Source: Oscillospiraceae bacterium (GTDB lineage: Bacteria > Bacillota > Clostridia > Saccharofermentanales > Saccharofermentanaceae). Taken from it: DNA of 33,527 nucleotides. Position 1 is the first letter of the stretch. Each line of letters begins with the position of its first letter. The notes under the pieces were generated by a model. It saw nothing but the letters and a program-made list of their open reading frames with translations. It made no database searches and was not told the DNA's origin. The stretch lies in the NCBI GenBank assembly GCA_902801755.1, contig CADCJM010000041.1, forward strand, positions 1 to 33,527, read 5' to 3'. The translations under genes and the position numbers were made by a program. Below, in pieces: positions 8,783-17,129 of this stretch.

Positions 8783-8810
8783 AGTCAAAGAAAGTCAAAG
8801 TCAAAGTCAG
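8783..8810 (+). promoter_or_regulatory. CtsR operator (heptad direct repeat) with extra half-sites
   Basis: AGTCAAAGAAAGTCAAA (8783-8799) is an exact match to the CtsR consensus RGTCAAANANRGTCAAA. It sits over the predicted transcription start, giving autorepression of the operon. The GTCAAA core then recurs at 6-bp spacing (GTCAAAGTCA, 8800-8809), which may provide extra or overlapping sites. Confidence 0.93.
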
Positions 8811-8863: not shown

Positions 8864-9325
8864 GTGGCAAGACTTGTTGATGTAATTGAACAGATGATCA
8901 AGGAGATGGTCGACGAGAATGACGGTACAGCTACTATCTGCAGAAGCCAGCTGGCAGAGCAGGCGAACTGTGTGCCCTCTCAGATCACATATGTGCTGTC
9001 TACAAGGTTTTCGGGCGGAAGCGGATATATAGTCGAGAGCAGAAGGGGCGGCGGCGGACAGATCACCATTACGAGGGTAAATCATGTCGGACCGGCTGAG
9101 TACCTTAAGGCTGTGATCGACAGCGTGGGCGACGACCTGTCACAGCAGCAGGCAAAGAACCTTCTGACCAACGCGGTTACCGTCGGAGCCATGACCTCCA
9201 AGGAAGGCACGGCGATAATGGCGGCTGTATCAGACAGGGCTCTTGCGAGAGTTGACTCGGATATCAGATCAGTCCTGAGAGCAGATATATTCAAGCATGC
9301 ATTGCTCGGACTGATGGTAACTTGA
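8864..9325 (+). CDS. ctsR: CtsR, transcriptional repressor of class III heat-shock genes
   Basis: This 153-residue dimeric DNA-binding protein represses clp genes by binding heptad repeats and loses DNA affinity at high temperature. Residues 1-70 are the winged helix-turn-helix (SQLAEQANCVPSQITYVLSTRF), with the glycine-rich wing RRGGGG that acts as the thermosensing loop and contacts DNA. The C-terminal helical domain follows. Length equals the usual 150-155. The start is GTG at 8864 behind a strong AAGGAGG. The operator immediately upstream shows that it regulates its own operon. mcsA follows after 28 nt. Confidence 0.96.
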   Translation: MARLVDVIEQMIKEMVDENDGTATICRSQLAEQANCVPSQITYVLSTRFSGGSGYIVESRRGGGGQITITRVNHVGPAEYLKAVIDSVGDDLSQQQAKNLLTNAVTVGAMTSKEGTAIMAAVSDRALARVDSDIRSVLRADIFKHALLGLMVT

Positions 9326-9353: not shown

Positions 9354-10022
9354 ATGAGATGTGAAAGATGCGGTAAGGAACTTACCAACAGGATAATAAA
9401 GATAAACGGTGTCACGTACTGCGAGAACTGCGCGAGGCTCATGGGCTATGACAGGTTCTTAAATGATCCGGCAGACTTTCTGGGCAATCCGTTCTCGCAG
9501 TTAGATGAGATCGCTTCATCTCTCATGCAGATGAATGAGCTCGACTTCGGCAACAGCACCCTCACATGCCCCAAGTGCGGCATGACTTTAAGGGAGTTTG
9601 AGACCGAGGGCCGCGTAGGCTGCATCGAGTGCTACAACACCTTTAATAACAACATCGTACGAGAGATGTTCAAGCAGCAGGGCAACAGCGAATACGCAGG
9701 CCGTCTCCCCGCACAGTCCGCAGATACTGATGCAGAGACCAGCGATGTTCCGCAGACAAAGAAGGCCGCAGCTTCCAAGACGATCGAGATGGAGATCCCG
9801 GAGAAAGCTGAAGAGCCCGTTAAGGAGACGAAGGCACCTGCTGCTAAATCCGGCAAGGGCGGCCTCACATTAGACCAGCTCATGAAGGCAGATCTGGGCA
9901 TGTTGTCCGACGAAGATCTCGAGAAGGGTATCAAAGTCGCAGCTGAAGCCGAGGAATACAAGCTCGCTTCAAGACTCAGAGATGAACTCAAGGGCAGAAA
10001 GGAAGGTGGAGACAATGTCTGA
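9354..10022 (+). CDS. mcsA: McsA, zinc-finger partner of McsB with UVR domain
   Basis: McsA is the zinc-binding adaptor that activates the McsB kinase and helps control CtsR and ClpC. The protein has four CxxC pairs (CERC, CENC, CPKC and CIEC, the first at residues 3-6), a flexible Ala/Lys/Glu/Pro linker at about 120-165, and a C-terminal UVR motif (SDEDLEKGIKVAAEAEEYKLA). At 222 residues it is longer than the B. subtilis protein (about 185), mainly in the linker. It has an AAAGGAG ribosome site. Its last 8 nt overlap the start of mcsB, so the two are translationally coupled. Confidence 0.93.
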   Translation: MRCERCGKELTNRIIKINGVTYCENCARLMGYDRFLNDPADFLGNPFSQLDEIASSLMQMNELDFGNSTLTCPKCGMTLREFETEGRVGCIECYNTFNNNIVREMFKQQGNSEYAGRLPAQSADTDAETSDVPQTKKAAASKTIEMEIPEKAEEPVKETKAPAAKSGKGGLTLDQLMKADLGMLSDEDLEKGIKVAAEAEEYKLASRLRDELKGRKEGGDNV

Positions 10023-11040
10023 ATGGTATATGAATGAGGGTAAAGATAACGACGTTGTTCTTTCCACAAAGGCGTGCATAGTACGTAATATCAAGGGCTA
10101 CAACTTCATGCCCAGACTGGACGACAAGGAGTGCAAGAGCCTTTTAGAGACGATAGACAAAGCAATCGATAAGAACAAATACACCGGCGGATGCGCAGCT
10201 GATTTTGATAAGCAGACGATCTTAAGACTTACAAGGCTTCAGATATTGGGACGCGAATCAAACCAGATGGCAACTCCCGAGAGAAAGGCATTCTACTATA
10301 ACGATGACGTCAGCCTTTCCATCGCCGTCGGAAGTGGTGAGCACCTGACAGTCAAGGCAATGGCTGCTGGCCACGACATAAGCGTTTATAAGCAGGCTGA
10401 AAAGGAAGCGTTGGATCTCGAGAGCAAGCTCGACATCGCGTTCTCGGAAAACTACGGATTCCTTACTTCACACGTAAGACTTGCAGGCACAGGACTTAAG
10501 ATCCTTTACACAGTATCGCTTCCGGCGATCTCAAAGACCGAAGGCGGCATTGCAGCTCTTACACAGCGTGTAAGCCAGTACGAATGGGCGATCTACCCGT
10601 TCGCGGAAAGAGGCGAGATCGCTGATTCTGACGTATATATCATTTCGAGCGTCAACACATTGGGCGTTACGGAAGATGAAGTATTAAAGAAAGGCGAGAT
10701 GCTTATAGCCGATGTCATCAAGGCGGAAAGAGCATTAAGGGAAGAGATAGCCACGAGCAAGAAGGACCAGTCAGAAGATATCTACGGCAGATCCTACGGC
10801 ACATTGAAGTATGCCGGCATGATCTCCAGGTCAGAAGCTCTTCAGGCTCTGGGGTGGCTCAGACTCTATCACGAATACGATGATTCAGGCGACATAAAGG
10901 TCTCCTGCAACACGATCAATAAACTTACGATGGATATCCTCTGGGAACCGGACGCTCCGTCAAAGAAATCAAGCCAGAGCGCCGCTTCACAGAAGTACAG
11001 GGCACAAGGAATCAAGAAGATACTGAAAGGGGATGATTAA
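10015..11040 (+). CDS. mcsB: McsB-like protein, predicted inactive protein-arginine kinase
   Basis: By position and overall sequence this is McsB, which phosphorylates arginines on CtsR and on ClpC substrates. Shared stretches include DVVLSTK, YGFLTS, LAGTGL, TLGVTEDEV and RSYGTLKYAG. Against the B. subtilis protein as I remember it, key residues are gone. The SSRIRLARN nucleotide site is STKACIVRN; the NEEDH loop is GSGEH; TSCPTN is TSHVRL, losing the catalytic cysteine; RASVM is KILYT; and the RGIYGEG glutamate loop has become PFAERGE. The phosphoarginine-binding C-terminus is also reduced, and length is 341 against about 363. It probably cannot transfer phosphate and may act as a scaffold with McsA. 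The ATG at 10015 overlaps mcsA; an earlier in-frame ATG (9982) lies inside it. Confidence 0.85.
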   Translation: MSEWYMNEGKDNDVVLSTKACIVRNIKGYNFMPRLDDKECKSLLETIDKAIDKNKYTGGCAADFDKQTILRLTRLQILGRESNQMATPERKAFYYNDDVSLSIAVGSGEHLTVKAMAAGHDISVYKQAEKEALDLESKLDIAFSENYGFLTSHVRLAGTGLKILYTVSLPAISKTEGGIAALTQRVSQYEWAIYPFAERGEIADSDVYIISSVNTLGVTEDEVLKKGEMLIADVIKAERALREEIATSKKDQSEDIYGRSYGTLKYAGMISRSEALQALGWLRLYHEYDDSGDIKVSCNTINKLTMDILWEPDAPSKKSSQSAASQKYRAQGIKKILKGDD

Positions 11041-11041
11041 T

Positions 11042-13720
11042 ATGAGAATTACTGAAGATACAGCTAAAGTGCTCGCGGTATCGAGCCTTATAGCGGAAGA
11101 AAGACATACATCACTTATAAGGGACACGATCCTTTTCGCAGCACTCTGCGTAACAGACACACCTGCAAAGGAGATCCTGTCCGAGAACGTTCCCGACATG
11201 TCGCTCATATTAGAGCGCCTCGGTGTCGAGGGCGAATACGATCTCGACAATAATGCGGTCAAGATGCTTGCAGACAGGGCATTCCAGACACTCCGTATCG
11301 ATGTCAGAAGGATCTTCTCCAACGCTTCGGATCTGTCCAGGAGAACGGGCTTTAACGGTGCCGTAAATCCTGAACATCTCCTGTTCGTAATCATGTCCCG
11401 TAAAGTATCCAACCACCCTGAGATCTTCAACTGCCTTGAGGCAGCAGGCTGCGATCTTGAGGGCATGAGATCTGCGATCATAAACGTATTTAATGAACAG
11501 GCAGAAGCTGCAAGAGCTGAGAAGAACGGCTTCGGCGATATCGGTCCTGACAGCTCCGACAGTGCTGACAGCGAGCCCTCCCAGGGTGTAAGAAAGACAG
11601 CCGGCAAATCCGGCAAGTCCGGCCATAAGACACTTGATAAGTACGGCAAGAACTTAACAGAGCTTGCCAAGCAGGGCAAGATCGATCCTGTAATTGGACG
11701 TGAGGAAGAGATCTCCCGTGTTATGCAGATCCTTATCCGCCGCACAAAGAACAATCCCTGCCTCGTAGGCGACCCTGGTGTAGGTAAGACTGCGATCGCA
11801 GAAGGCCTCGCATTGAAGATCGCTGAGAATAACGTTCCTGACGTTATCAAGGGCAAGATCGTATACAGCATGGAGATGGGTTCTATGGTAGCCGGCTCCA
11901 AGTACAGAGGCGAGTTCGAGGAGCGTATCAAGAATATGCTCGACGAAGCGGTTGCAGATCCTAACGTCATCCTCTTCATCGATGAGATCCACACTCTTGT
12001 AGGTGCAGGCGATACTTCCGGCGGTTCCATGGATGCAGCTAACATCATGAAGCCTCTTCTTACAAAGAACGAGCTCCAGATCATCGGCGCCACAACGCTT
12101 GATGAATATTCCAAGTTCATAGAGAAGGACCATGCTCTTGAGAGAAGATTCCAGAAGGTCCTTGTTGAAGAGCCCTCCATCGAGGATGCGATCGCGATCA
12201 TGAAAGGTCTTCGCCCGAAGTACGAAGAGCACCACAAGATCCACATTCCTGATGATGTTTTAGAGCAGTCCGTAAGACTTTCTGCAAGATATGTATCTGA
12301 CAGATTCCTTCCGGATAAGGCTATCGACTTAGTCGATGAGGCTGCAGCTGCAAAGCGCATCAACTACGCTGATTCCAAGGTCAGGAATGAACTCGAAAAG
12401 AAGATCGAAGAGATCAAGGACAAGAAGAAGGCTGCTGTCGACGCACAGGATTTTGAAGCTGCACAGACTCTTAAAGAAGAAGAGGAAAAGCTGGGCGAGA
12501 GACTCTCACTCCTCCAGGACAAGGTCAAGCCCGATAAGGACGGCTTTACAGGAACTCTTACTGTTGATGATGTGGCTGTTGTCCTTGCAAAGTGGACAGG
12601 CATTCCCACAACAAAGATCACCGAATCTGACGCCGACAAGCTCAAGAACCTTGAGTCTGAACTCGAGAAGAGAGTAGTAGGCCAGGACGAGGCTGTTCAC
12701 GCTATCGCGAAGGCTATCCGCAGAGGCAGACTGGGCCTTAAGGACGAGAAGAGACCTTCCGGTTCATTCATCTTCCTCGGCACAACAGGTGTAGGTAAGA
12801 CAGAGCTTGCAAAGGCACTTGCCGAAGTCATGTTCGGCAACGAGAGCGCTCTTGTAAGAGTCGATATGTCCGAATATATGGAGAAGCACGACGTCTCAAG
12901 ACTTATCGGTGCGCCTCCGGGATATGTCGGATACGATGAGGGCGGCCAGCTCACTGAAGCTGTCAGAAGACATCCTTATTCAGTCGTTCTTTTCGATGAG
13001 ATCGAAAAGGCACACCCTGAGATCTTTAACACGATGCTCCAGGTATTGGACGACGGACGTCTTACAGACGGCCACGGCAGAACGGTCGACTTCAGAAATA
13101 CGATCATCATTATGACTTCCAACATCGGCGCGAGAATGCTTGTCGGAAGCGAAGGCAGAAAGATCGGATTCTCCGTTGAAGACGACAGCGACAAGGATGA
13201 ACTCTCCAGAGAAGGCCTTTACGGCGGCAAGTCTTACGACGAGGCTAAGAAGGTCGTAATCGATGAGCTCAAGAAGACATTCACTCCTGAATTCGTTAAC
13301 CGTGTGGACGACATCATCTTCTTCCGTATGCTCGGCAAGGATTCGCTCATCAAGATCGTTGATATTCTTATGAAGCAGGTTGGCAAGAGGATCAGGGATC
13401 TCGGCATGGAGATCGAGCTTACAGACAGCGCGAAAGAACTCCTCGCCAAGAAGGGTTACGATCCGCAGTATGGTGCAAGACCTCTCAGAAGAGTCATTAC
13501 TTCCATGGTCGAGGACCGTTTCTCCGAAGCAATGCTCGACGGTATCGTAAAGCCCGGACACCTTGCGATCATCGATGCTGTAGAGACCACGGATCCTGAT
13601 GCGCTTCTTGCCCAGGGCAGTGCTGCAGAGGACGGAAAAGTCATCGTTATCAGGGATGGCGGAGAGCTTGAAATATCAAGCAATTCTGTTATTCAGGAAA
13701 CAGCAGGCACAGCGCTCTGA
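11042..13720 (+). CDS. clpC: ClpC, AAA+ unfoldase of the ClpCP protease
   Basis: ClpC is an ATP-driven unfoldase that feeds proteins to ClpP. The 892-residue protein has an N-terminal repeat domain (about 1-150), a linker rich in Ser, Gly and Lys, AAA domain 1 with Walker A GDPGVGKT at 243 and Walker B VILFIDEIH, and a coiled-coil M domain with UVR-like sequence around 455-490. AAA domain 2 follows, with Walker A GTTGVGKT at 580 and VVLFDEIEKAHPE. It is longer than the B. subtilis protein (about 810), with an acidic insertion near residues 715-735 and a C-terminal extension. I chose ATG 11042, behind AAAGGGG, over the in-frame ATG 11033 inside mcsB. It is the last gene of the CtsR-controlled operon; no terminator is evident. 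Confidence 0.95.
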   Translation: MRITEDTAKVLAVSSLIAEERHTSLIRDTILFAALCVTDTPAKEILSENVPDMSLILERLGVEGEYDLDNNAVKMLADRAFQTLRIDVRRIFSNASDLSRRTGFNGAVNPEHLLFVIMSRKVSNHPEIFNCLEAAGCDLEGMRSAIINVFNEQAEAARAEKNGFGDIGPDSSDSADSEPSQGVRKTAGKSGKSGHKTLDKYGKNLTELAKQGKIDPVIGREEEISRVMQILIRRTKNNPCLVGDPGVGKTAIAEGLALKIAENNVPDVIKGKIVYSMEMGSMVAGSKYRGEFEERIKNMLDEAVADPNVILFIDEIHTLVGAGDTSGGSMDAANIMKPLLTKNELQIIGATTLDEYSKFIEKDHALERRFQKVLVEEPSIEDAIAIMKGLRPKYEEHHKIHIPDDVLEQSVRLSARYVSDRFLPDKAIDLVDEAAAAKRINYADSKVRNELEKKIEEIKDKKKAAVDAQDFEAAQTLKEEEEKLGERLSLLQDKVKPDKDGFTGTLTVDDVAVVLAKWTGIPTTKITESDADKLKNLESELEKRVVGQDEAVHAIAKAIRRGRLGLKDEKRPSGSFIFLGTTGVGKTELAKALAEVMFGNESALVRVDMSEYMEKHDVSRLIGAPPGYVGYDEGGQLTEAVRRHPYSVVLFDEIEKAHPEIFNTMLQVLDDGRLTDGHGRTVDFRNTIIIMTSNIGARMLVGSEGRKIGFSVEDDSDKDELSREGLYGGKSYDEAKKVVIDELKKTFTPEFVNRVDDIIFFRMLGKDSLIKIVDILMKQVGKRIRDLGMEIELTDSAKELLAKKGYDPQYGARPLRRVITSMVEDRFSEAMLDGIVKPGHLAIIDAVETTDPDALLAQGSAAEDGKVIVIRDGGELEISSNSVIQETAGTAL

Positions 13721-15291: not shown

Positions 15292-16376
15292 ATGGCAATG
15301 TATGACAAGAAAAGCGTCGAAGATTTAGACGTAGCCGGCAAGAGAGTTATCGTCCGCGTTGACTTTAACGTACCGCTCGACAAGGAAACAGGCACAAAGA
15401 TCACAGACGACAAGCGTATCAAGGGTGCTCTTCCTACGATCAAGTATCTCGTAGACAACAAGGCAAAGGTTATCCTCGTTTCACATCTCGGCCGTCCGAA
15501 GAACGGTCCTGAGGCTAAGTTCTCAATGAAGCCCGCTGCTGACCGTCTCGCTGAGCTTCTCGGACAGCCTGTTACTCTGGCTGCTGACGTTATCGGCGAA
15601 GATGCAAAGGCTAAGGCTGCTGCTCTCAAGGAAGGCGAAGTTCTCATGCTCGAGAACGTCCGTTTCCACAAGGAAGAGACAAAGAACGATCCTAAGTTCG
15701 CAGCTGAGCTCGCTTCTATGGCTGACCTCTATGTTAACGATGCATTCGGTACAGCTCACCGTGCTCATGCTTCAACAGCAGGTCTTGCTAACTTCCTGCC
15801 TTCCGCTTGCGGTTATCTCATCAAGAAAGAGATCGACTTCATCGGCGGTGCGCTCGACAATCCTGCAAGACCGTTCGTTGCTATTCTTGGCGGTGCTAAG
15901 GTTTCCGACAAGATCGGCGTTATCACAAACCTTTTAGACAAGGCTGACACCATCATCATCGGCGGTGGTATGGCTTATACATTCATCGGCGCTCAGGGCG
16001 GCAAGATCGGTGATTCCCTCTTCGAAGCTGACAAGGTTGACCTCGCTAAGGAGATCCTCGCTAAGGCTGAAGAGAAGGGCGTTAAGCTCCTTCTTCCTAC
16101 AGACACAGTTGTTGCTGATGCTTTCCTAAGACAGTTATCTGGAATGGCCCTGCAGGCGTTTTCGAGTTCGAGAAGTTCGCAGTTGGTACAAAGGCTATCG
16201 CTCAGGCAATCGCTGATGCAGACTGCACATCGATCATCGGCGGCGGCGACTCCGCAGCTGCTATCGAGAAGCTCGGCTATGCTGATAAGGTTTCTCACAT
16301 CTCCACAGGCGGCGGCGCTTCTCTCGAGTACATCGAGGGTAAGGTTCTCCCCGGTATCGACTGCCTCAACGACAAG
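15292..16376 (+). CDS. pgk: Phosphoglycerate kinase part of a PGK-TIM fusion, with internal frameshifting deletion
   Basis: PGK makes ATP from 1,3-bisphosphoglycerate. The N-terminal lobe and start of the C-lobe are intact in the frame of ATG 15292 (AGGAG upstream): [40 protein letters not shown] and [12 protein letters not shown]. At VVADAF (16108-16125) the frame breaks. The rest of PGK resumes at 16128 in another frame with [27 protein letters not shown] and [10 protein letters not shown], and ends at CLNDK (16376). About 36 residues, including the expected LDIGP motif, are missing: 361 residues against about 395-400. A deletion of 3n+1 bases near 110 bp explains both the gap and the frame change. 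In the starting frame translation instead runs through unrelated sequence to a TGA at 16414-16416. There is no stop between PGK and TIM in the resumed frame. Confidence 0.9.
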
Positions 16377-17129
16377 AAGACAGGCAGAATCTTTGCTGCA
16401 GGCAACTGGAAGATGAACTGCGGTATCCCTGCAGATGCAGTTAAGCTCATCGAAGAGCTCAAGCCCCTCGTTAAGAATGCTGAGCACAGAATCGCTCTCG
16501 GCGTTCCTGCTACAGCACTTGCTGCTGCAGTTGAGGCTGCTGCTTACACAAACATCAAGATCGCTGCCCAGAACTGCCACTTCGAAGAGAAGGGTGCTTT
16601 CACAGGCGAGATCTCACCTCTCTGGCTTGCTAAGATGGGCGTAAATTACTGCATCATCGGCCACTCTGAGAGAAGAGAGTACAACGCAGAGACAGACGAG
16701 ACAGTTAACAAGAAGGCTCTTGCACTCCTCAAGTATGGTGTAAGACCTATCATCTGCTGCGGTGAGTCTCTTGCTCAGCGTGAAGCAGGCGAGACATTCG
16801 ACTGGATCAAGGGCCAGATCGTTGGCGCTTTCAAGGATATTCCTGCTGACAAGCTCTGCCAGATCACAATCGCTTATGAGCCTATCTGGGCTATCGGCAC
16901 AGGTAAGACAGCTACAGACGAGCAGGCTGAAGAAGTTTGCAAGTTCATCCGTGGCGTCATCGCTGAGCTCTATTGCCCTAAGTGCGCTGAGGCTATCACG
17001 ATCCAGTACGGCGGTTCCTGCAATGCCAAGAACGCTGCAGGCCTCTTCGCTCAGCCTGACATCAACGGCGGTCTCGTAGGTGGCGCTTCCCTCAAGGCTG
17101 AGGATTTCTCCATCATCTGCAACGCATAA
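16377..17129 (+). CDS. tpiA: Triosephosphate isomerase part of a PGK-TIM fusion
   Basis: TIM interconverts dihydroxyacetone phosphate and glyceraldehyde 3-phosphate. This half begins about three residues after the natural PGK end and runs in the same frame: [11 protein letters not shown] with the catalytic Lys, GHSERR with the catalytic His, and [14 protein letters not shown] with the catalytic Glu and the closing loop. YGGSCN and GLVGGASL phosphate-binding segments follow. Length (about 250) is the normal full TIM domain. There is no ribosome site or start codon at its front. The only ATG (16413) lies after the essential NWK residues, so a protein begun there would be inactive. The TIM domain must therefore be made as part of the fusion, as in Thermotoga PGK-TIM. 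A strong terminator follows. Confidence 0.93.

Follow-up and report, generated by a model that had tools for sequence, protein, structure and literature searches.

The mcsB gene in the stretch of DNA analyzed here (the window; 33,527 nucleotides of contig CADCJM010000041.1, assembly GCA_902801755.1) probably encodes a catalytically dead protein-arginine kinase that is still needed by the cell. Its catalytic residues have almost certainly been lost, and McsB very probably makes no phosphoarginine in the genus to which the window belongs, as judged from the active sites of its members. Loss of catalytic residues together with purifying selection on the protein, which characterizes a pseudoenzyme, was observed both in McsB and in the domain of the arginine phosphatase YwlE. 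McsB normally marks damaged proteins by phosphorylating their arginines, and YwlE takes this mark off again; the heat-shock operon of this genus now probably runs without the phosphoarginine tag.

The gene order ctsR-mcsA-mcsB-clpC was intact in the window, with all four genes on the + strand. The ctsR gene (8864..9325) was assigned by Pfam CtsR and CtsR_C and by alignment with relatives, and mcsA (9354..10022) by the NCBIfam McsA model (61 bits, E 9.7e-17), its translation and an alignment of relatives. Pfam, NCBIfam, structure matches and alignments identified mcsB (10015..11040, 341 aa), and clpC (11033..13720, 895 aa), encoding the AAA+ unfoldase, was identified by Pfam and NCBIfam. The mcsB ORF is real, open and of full length, and its reading frame overlaps mcsA and clpC at its two ends. 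The CtsR operator, AGTCAAAGAAAGTCAAA (AGTCAAA GAA AGTCAAA), lies upstream of ctsR at 8783..8799 on the + strand and matches RGTCAAANNNRGTCAAA exactly; it was the sole site with at most two mismatches when the window was searched with the latter, and in relatives the operator is retained upstream of ctsR with 0–2 mismatches. The gene order and the perfect operator thus bear out the original prediction that the operon and its CtsR box are intact. That the other three proteins are intact as well was right only in part, since in ClpC the phosphoarginine-pocket residue E32 has been replaced by Thr. McsA retains both CXXC zinc-finger pairs and a C-terminal UVR-like helix, and has a long acidic linker.

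McsB matched Pfam ATP-gua_Ptrans (PF00217) with 84.5 bits and the NCBIfam McsB models far under their cut-offs (148 vs. 385 and 120 vs. 500). Its motifs were compared with those of McsB of Geobacillus stearothermophilus (6fh1) and B. subtilis (8wtb), and this alignment confirmed that the catalytic residues are gone. All the segments concerned lie on the + strand. In the former first ATP site (10063..10089), SSRxRLARN (SSRIRLARN) has become STKACIVRN with the loss of both phosphate-binding arginines, and in the former catalytic loop (10330..10353) NEEDHIRI reads GSGEHLTV, so that both glutamates and the third ATP arginine are missing. The former active-site segment (10465..10500) has changed from TSCPTNVGTGLR to TSHVRLAGTGLK, losing the Cys, the Asn and the fourth ATP arginine; here TSCPTN aligns to TSHVRL and RASVM to KILYT. 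The former glutamate loop (10594..10614), RGxYGEG (RGTYGEG), is now YPFAERG, and these last three changes are as had been foreseen. Altogether, none of five ATP-binding arginines and neither of the two catalytic glutamates remain, and the active-site cysteine is gone. The 12 active-site positions, which we take to be R124, R126, R229, R280, R309, E224, E225, D226, H227, C271, N274, and E314 in Limulus arginine-kinase numbering, spell RRRRREEDHCNE in 6fh1 and 8wtb alike, as against KCTKYSGEHHLR in the window.

Two of the predicted losses were only partial. The two phosphate-binding arginines of SSRxRLARN and both glutamates of NEEDH are indeed missing, but the final R-N of the former and the His of the latter are retained, and the R of this R-N and the His are each present in 31/31 sequences of the genus. 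In the C-terminal helix (10987..11022) the phosphoarginine-receptor motif RDxxRA is reduced to RA, and the residues R337/D338, which form the phosphoarginine receptor of McsB (PMC8370763), are absent. The anticipated loss of this C-terminus was therefore found, but it predates the loss of the kinase, since sister genera with intact active sites share it. As expected, a search of the window's genome (assembly 89% complete) revealed no second McsB, and mcsB was its sole guanido-kinase gene.

The frame has nevertheless been maintained by selection. Using the NG86 method, for which some mcsB dS values were near saturation, dN/dS of the pseudo-mcsB genes was 0.02–0.10, as compared with 0.06–0.09 for clpC and 0.06–0.09 for the active mcsB of other families; in close pseudo-mcsB pairs (dS 0.17–0.54) it was 0.02–0.06. 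No internal stops were present in any mcsB copy, with proteins diverged to 24–35% identity. The purifying selection that had been proposed as a check was thus observed, and together with the open frames it led us to reject a pseudogene. Catalytic columns that were once invariant are now among the more variable ones (E314 at the 98th percentile and E225 at the 89th), and other McsB columns stayed fixed in the genus, with P195, a proline in the glutamate loop (30/31 in the genus), and W191 newly conserved. The AlphaFold2 model of the window McsB (pLDDT 91, pTM 0.90) was compared by Foldseek with the full-length McsB structures 6tv6, 6fh1, 6fh3, and 8gqd, giving TM scores of 0.81–0.87, and the solved structures most like it were those of McsB. 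The full-length fold has accordingly been kept, as anticipated, with the phosphagen-kinase catalytic domain and the McsB dimerisation/C-terminal domain both present.

The spread of the loss was followed in 40 relatives and in a PF00217 survey of 98 genomes of the family. All McsB-bearing genomes of the window's genus in the first sample had an eroded active site (23/23, including the window; one sequence was partial), and so did nine of nine further genomes, which brings the total to 32. The active-site string was intact both in the four sister genera, g12–g15 (RRRRREEDH[C/Y]NE, 11/11), and in other families of the order (RRRRR[E/D]EDHCNE, 12/12 genomes). PF00217 scores were correspondingly bimodal in the family, at 192.8–214 bits in the four sister genera and 67–126 bits in the window's genus; a single sister-genus piece of 58 bits was the remainder of a gene split over two contigs. 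One mcsB copy per genome was found across the survey. In addition, 40 loci were read on public contigs that overlap the 32 genomes and bear the titles Saccharofermentans sp., Ruminococcaceae or Clostridiales; neither catalytic Glu was retained in any of them, and 36/40 had none of the five arginines; the cultured isolates AB4001 and YAD3003 are among these loci and have an eroded McsB. The deep branch G064 of the genus retains two arginines in an otherwise eroded McsB, and in one genome, apparently G013, position 314 was Glu in one alignment and Lys in another. Three members of the genus (G023, G097, and G098; genomes 86–98% complete) showed no McsB, by real loss or by an assembly gap. That the losses are common to the clade was thus upheld, and within the family the loss of the McsB active site falls in a single genus, the rumen bacteria Saccharofermentans and relatives. 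In the sister genus g13 (L190, L194, L196, L198) the Cys of TSCPTN is replaced by Tyr (TAYPSN) and McsB is otherwise canonical, which makes it a natural Cys-less variant.

The phosphatase YwlE had been predicted to be absent. What the genus has instead is YwlE fused to TsaC, as a pseudo-phosphatase domain that is conserved. In other families tsaC and ywlE are adjacent genes in this order and the P-loop is intact (CTGNTCRS, in CTGNTCRSPM, with the nucleophilic Cys, the specificity Thr and the Arg), while throughout the window's family both are fused into a protein of 550–600 aa (Pfam Sua5, Sua5_C, and LMWPc). Orthology of the domain to YwlE is indicated by this tsaC (ywlC) synteny. The fusion of YwlE to TsaC (threonylcarbamoyl-AMP synthase) occurs with either an intact or a dead P-loop (L145–L165, L209–L249). 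Sister-genus fusions keep C[TS]GNTCRS in 11/11 cases; in the window's genus the CX5R P-loop is destroyed in all 51 fusions, none keeping both its Cys and its Arg (typically VDDNNTSLS or VCDDNTCLS), with the Asp-loop D retained in 50/51. The dN/dS of the YwlE domain (0.02–0.13, with many dS values saturated) was similar to that of the TsaC half. It must be noted that no LMWPc match and no fusion were found in the window's own assembly (G000, 89% complete). The genome nearest to the window (McsB 99% identical) has a fusion with VDDNNTSLS, and because near relatives carry it, the missing fusion is most likely an assembly gap; absence of YwlE was discarded once the TsaC fusion had been found. LMW phosphatases that stand alone in this genus were also rejected as YwlE, their P-loop being of the Tyr type (CHGNICRS), and a third LMW phosphatase match, in G013, looks ArsC-like (CVHNSCRSQ). 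No YwlE-type match was detected either in the genomes of the order that do not have McsB (G024, G029, G030, and G038).

With respect to ClpC, B. subtilis ClpC and CtsR sequences served as alignment references, and the positions of E32 and E106 agree with the published ones. ClpC has two phosphoarginine pockets, centred on these two residues (PMC12583610). In the window, Thr32 (11126..11128, + strand; alignment with relatives) stands in place of Glu32, and Glu106 is retained. E32 is conserved in the sister genera and in other families, and is Thr in the window's clade; elsewhere in the genus this position is K, Q, R, V or H, with Glu in about a third, and E106 is mostly retained. The E32 loss could be compensatory, since the S. 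aureus substitutions E32A or E106A partially activate ClpC without phosphoarginine (PMC12583610). In two members that have diverged strongly from the rest of the genus (L041 and L042, from G013 and G021), McsA has no first zinc finger and ClpC has neither pocket glutamate.

In the ClpC tree the window's genus was monophyletic (support 0.90). Midpoint rooting broke up the family, an effect of the long branches within this genus, and rooting on other families kept it together. The sequences place the TsaC-YwlE fusion and the loss of R337/D338 in McsB before the origin of the genus, and the loss of both the McsB and the YwlE active sites maps to its base, so that writer and eraser died together and both survive as pseudoenzymes. 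Erosion of the ClpC pocket probably came later, since it is patchy within the genus.

As for the role that is left, B. subtilis biology and the gene neighbourhood lead us to favour slightly a non-catalytic partner of McsA, CtsR, and ClpC. McsA of B. subtilis ordinarily keeps McsB bound and activates it, and oxidised McsA frees it; the freed McsB is kinase-inactive yet strips CtsR from DNA (review, PMC5506225). With the McsB/YwlE phosphoarginine cycle presumably gone from the genus, McsB might act through binding alone, under the control of McsA, taking CtsR off the DNA and/or passing CtsR and misfolded clients to ClpC, whose phosphoarginine-free activation could be aided by the loss of Glu32. 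A binding role controlled by McsA is favoured because the zinc-finger cysteines of McsA and the CtsR operator are retained across the window's clade. Against it, the adaptor and ClpC-activating functions of McsB require kinase activity in B. subtilis (PMC5506225), and what McsB still does here may therefore not be its known role. A more speculative proposal, which we regard as doubtful, is that pseudo-McsB and the TsaC-tied pseudo-YwlE form a non-enzymatic pair that would link CtsR/ClpC to the state of translation without arginine phosphorylation, ClpC being self-de-repressed at its former phosphoarginine pocket. If so, the two would go on binding one another or partners in common, and a whole reversible modification cycle would have turned into non-enzymatic signalling, with pseudo-YwlE covalently joined to the t6A-tRNA enzyme TsaC.

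Some observations do not fit easily with a pseudokinase, namely that Glu106 of ClpC is mostly kept, that Glu32 is kept in about a third of the genomes read, that the TsaC-YwlE fusion falls in a gap of the window's assembly and that three genomes do not have McsB. In this regard, phosphoarginine signalling might persist through a non-homologous kinase, with pseudo-McsB and pseudo-YwlE as its regulatory subunits. Phosphoarginine from another enzyme has to be considered because Mycolicibacterium smegmatis, in which no McsB homologue is known, phosphorylates arginines (PMC9604228), and the retained ClpC glutamates would suit it; nevertheless, there is no candidate kinase, one pocket glutamate is missing in the window's clade and the catalytic residues of YwlE are gone too, which makes this quite improbable. 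Retention of nucleotide-dependent or new catalysis by pseudo-McsB, with a different pocket chemistry or as a nucleotide-sensing switch, is also unlikely. The invariant R of the first motif and His of NEEDH would agree with it, as would the Lys found at the first ATP arginine (27/31) and at the RAS arginine (13/31) and the new conserved residues in or near the old glutamate loop (P195 and W191), but the genus has lost both catalytic glutamates and no fewer than three of the five phosphate-binding arginines, and the lost catalytic columns are mostly highly variable, unlike those of a rebuilt active site.

TsaC is essential, and McsB and the YwlE domain could be decaying relics that persist through translational coupling with, and fusion to, essential neighbours. 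The overlaps of mcsB with mcsA and clpC and the fusion of YwlE to TsaC might slow their loss through polar effects, and the three genomes without McsB are compatible with decay. The low dN/dS of both coding regions, the absence of internal stops at 24–35% identity and the newly conserved McsB positions argue strongly in the opposite direction, and we consider decay very unlikely. As the window comes from a MAG and its McsB is only 24% identical to solved McsB, shifted residues or a chimeric assembly might also be invoked. The probability of such an artefact is negligible: the motifs are anchored by flanking conserved residues, two independent alignment methods and the structure match agree that the catalytic residues are not shifted elsewhere, 23 active relatives align readily, and the changes recur in dozens of independent assemblies, including those of the two cultured isolates. 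A catalytically dead McsB that the cell still needs remains our preferred explanation.

Canonical McsB (B. subtilis, G. stearothermophilus, and S. aureus) shares with the window McsB the fold, length, operon position, McsA neighbour and CtsR control, and differs from it in having the ATP-binding arginines, catalytic glutamates, active-site Cys and receptor RD. Bacterial Ser/Thr pseudokinases likewise have a dead kinase fold under selection, but they belong to another superfamily; the window McsB has the phosphagen kinase fold, and its cognate phosphatase is dead too. A literature search, in which few subscription papers were covered, found no earlier description of a pseudokinase McsB or of a pseudo-YwlE. 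The kinase and adaptor functions of McsB are hard to separate in B. subtilis (PMC5506225), and with them the question of which functions need arginine phosphorylation and which need binding. The genus represents an evolutionary separation experiment, with McsB, McsA, CtsR, ClpC, and the YwlE domain kept and the catalytic residues of both writer and eraser lost; the sister genera with intact active sites are its natural control, and the cultured isolates AB4001 and YAD3003 make the question testable.

A Treponema genus (L115, L117–L124, L256–L285) has mcsA-mcsB-clpC with no adjoining ctsR in the loci examined. In McsB of 30 of its species the YGE glutamate is absent in 30/30 and the second NEEDH glutamate in 29/30, so that nearly all are also without both catalytic glutamates, usually without the RGxYGE arginine as well. 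Unlike the window McsB, they have for the most part retained ATP arginines one to three. The single LMW phosphatase examined in this genus was of the Tyr type. This is probably an independent loss, because the residue pattern and the phylum differ, and two different losses suggest that a non-catalytic function of McsB is general.

Downstream of the operon, at 15292–17129 (+ strand) of the window, pgk is frameshifted near 16115–16130, and its C-terminal PGK half reads without stops into the N-terminus of triosephosphate isomerase. This suggests a PGK-TIM fusion in which an indel, probably introduced during assembly, breaks the frame.
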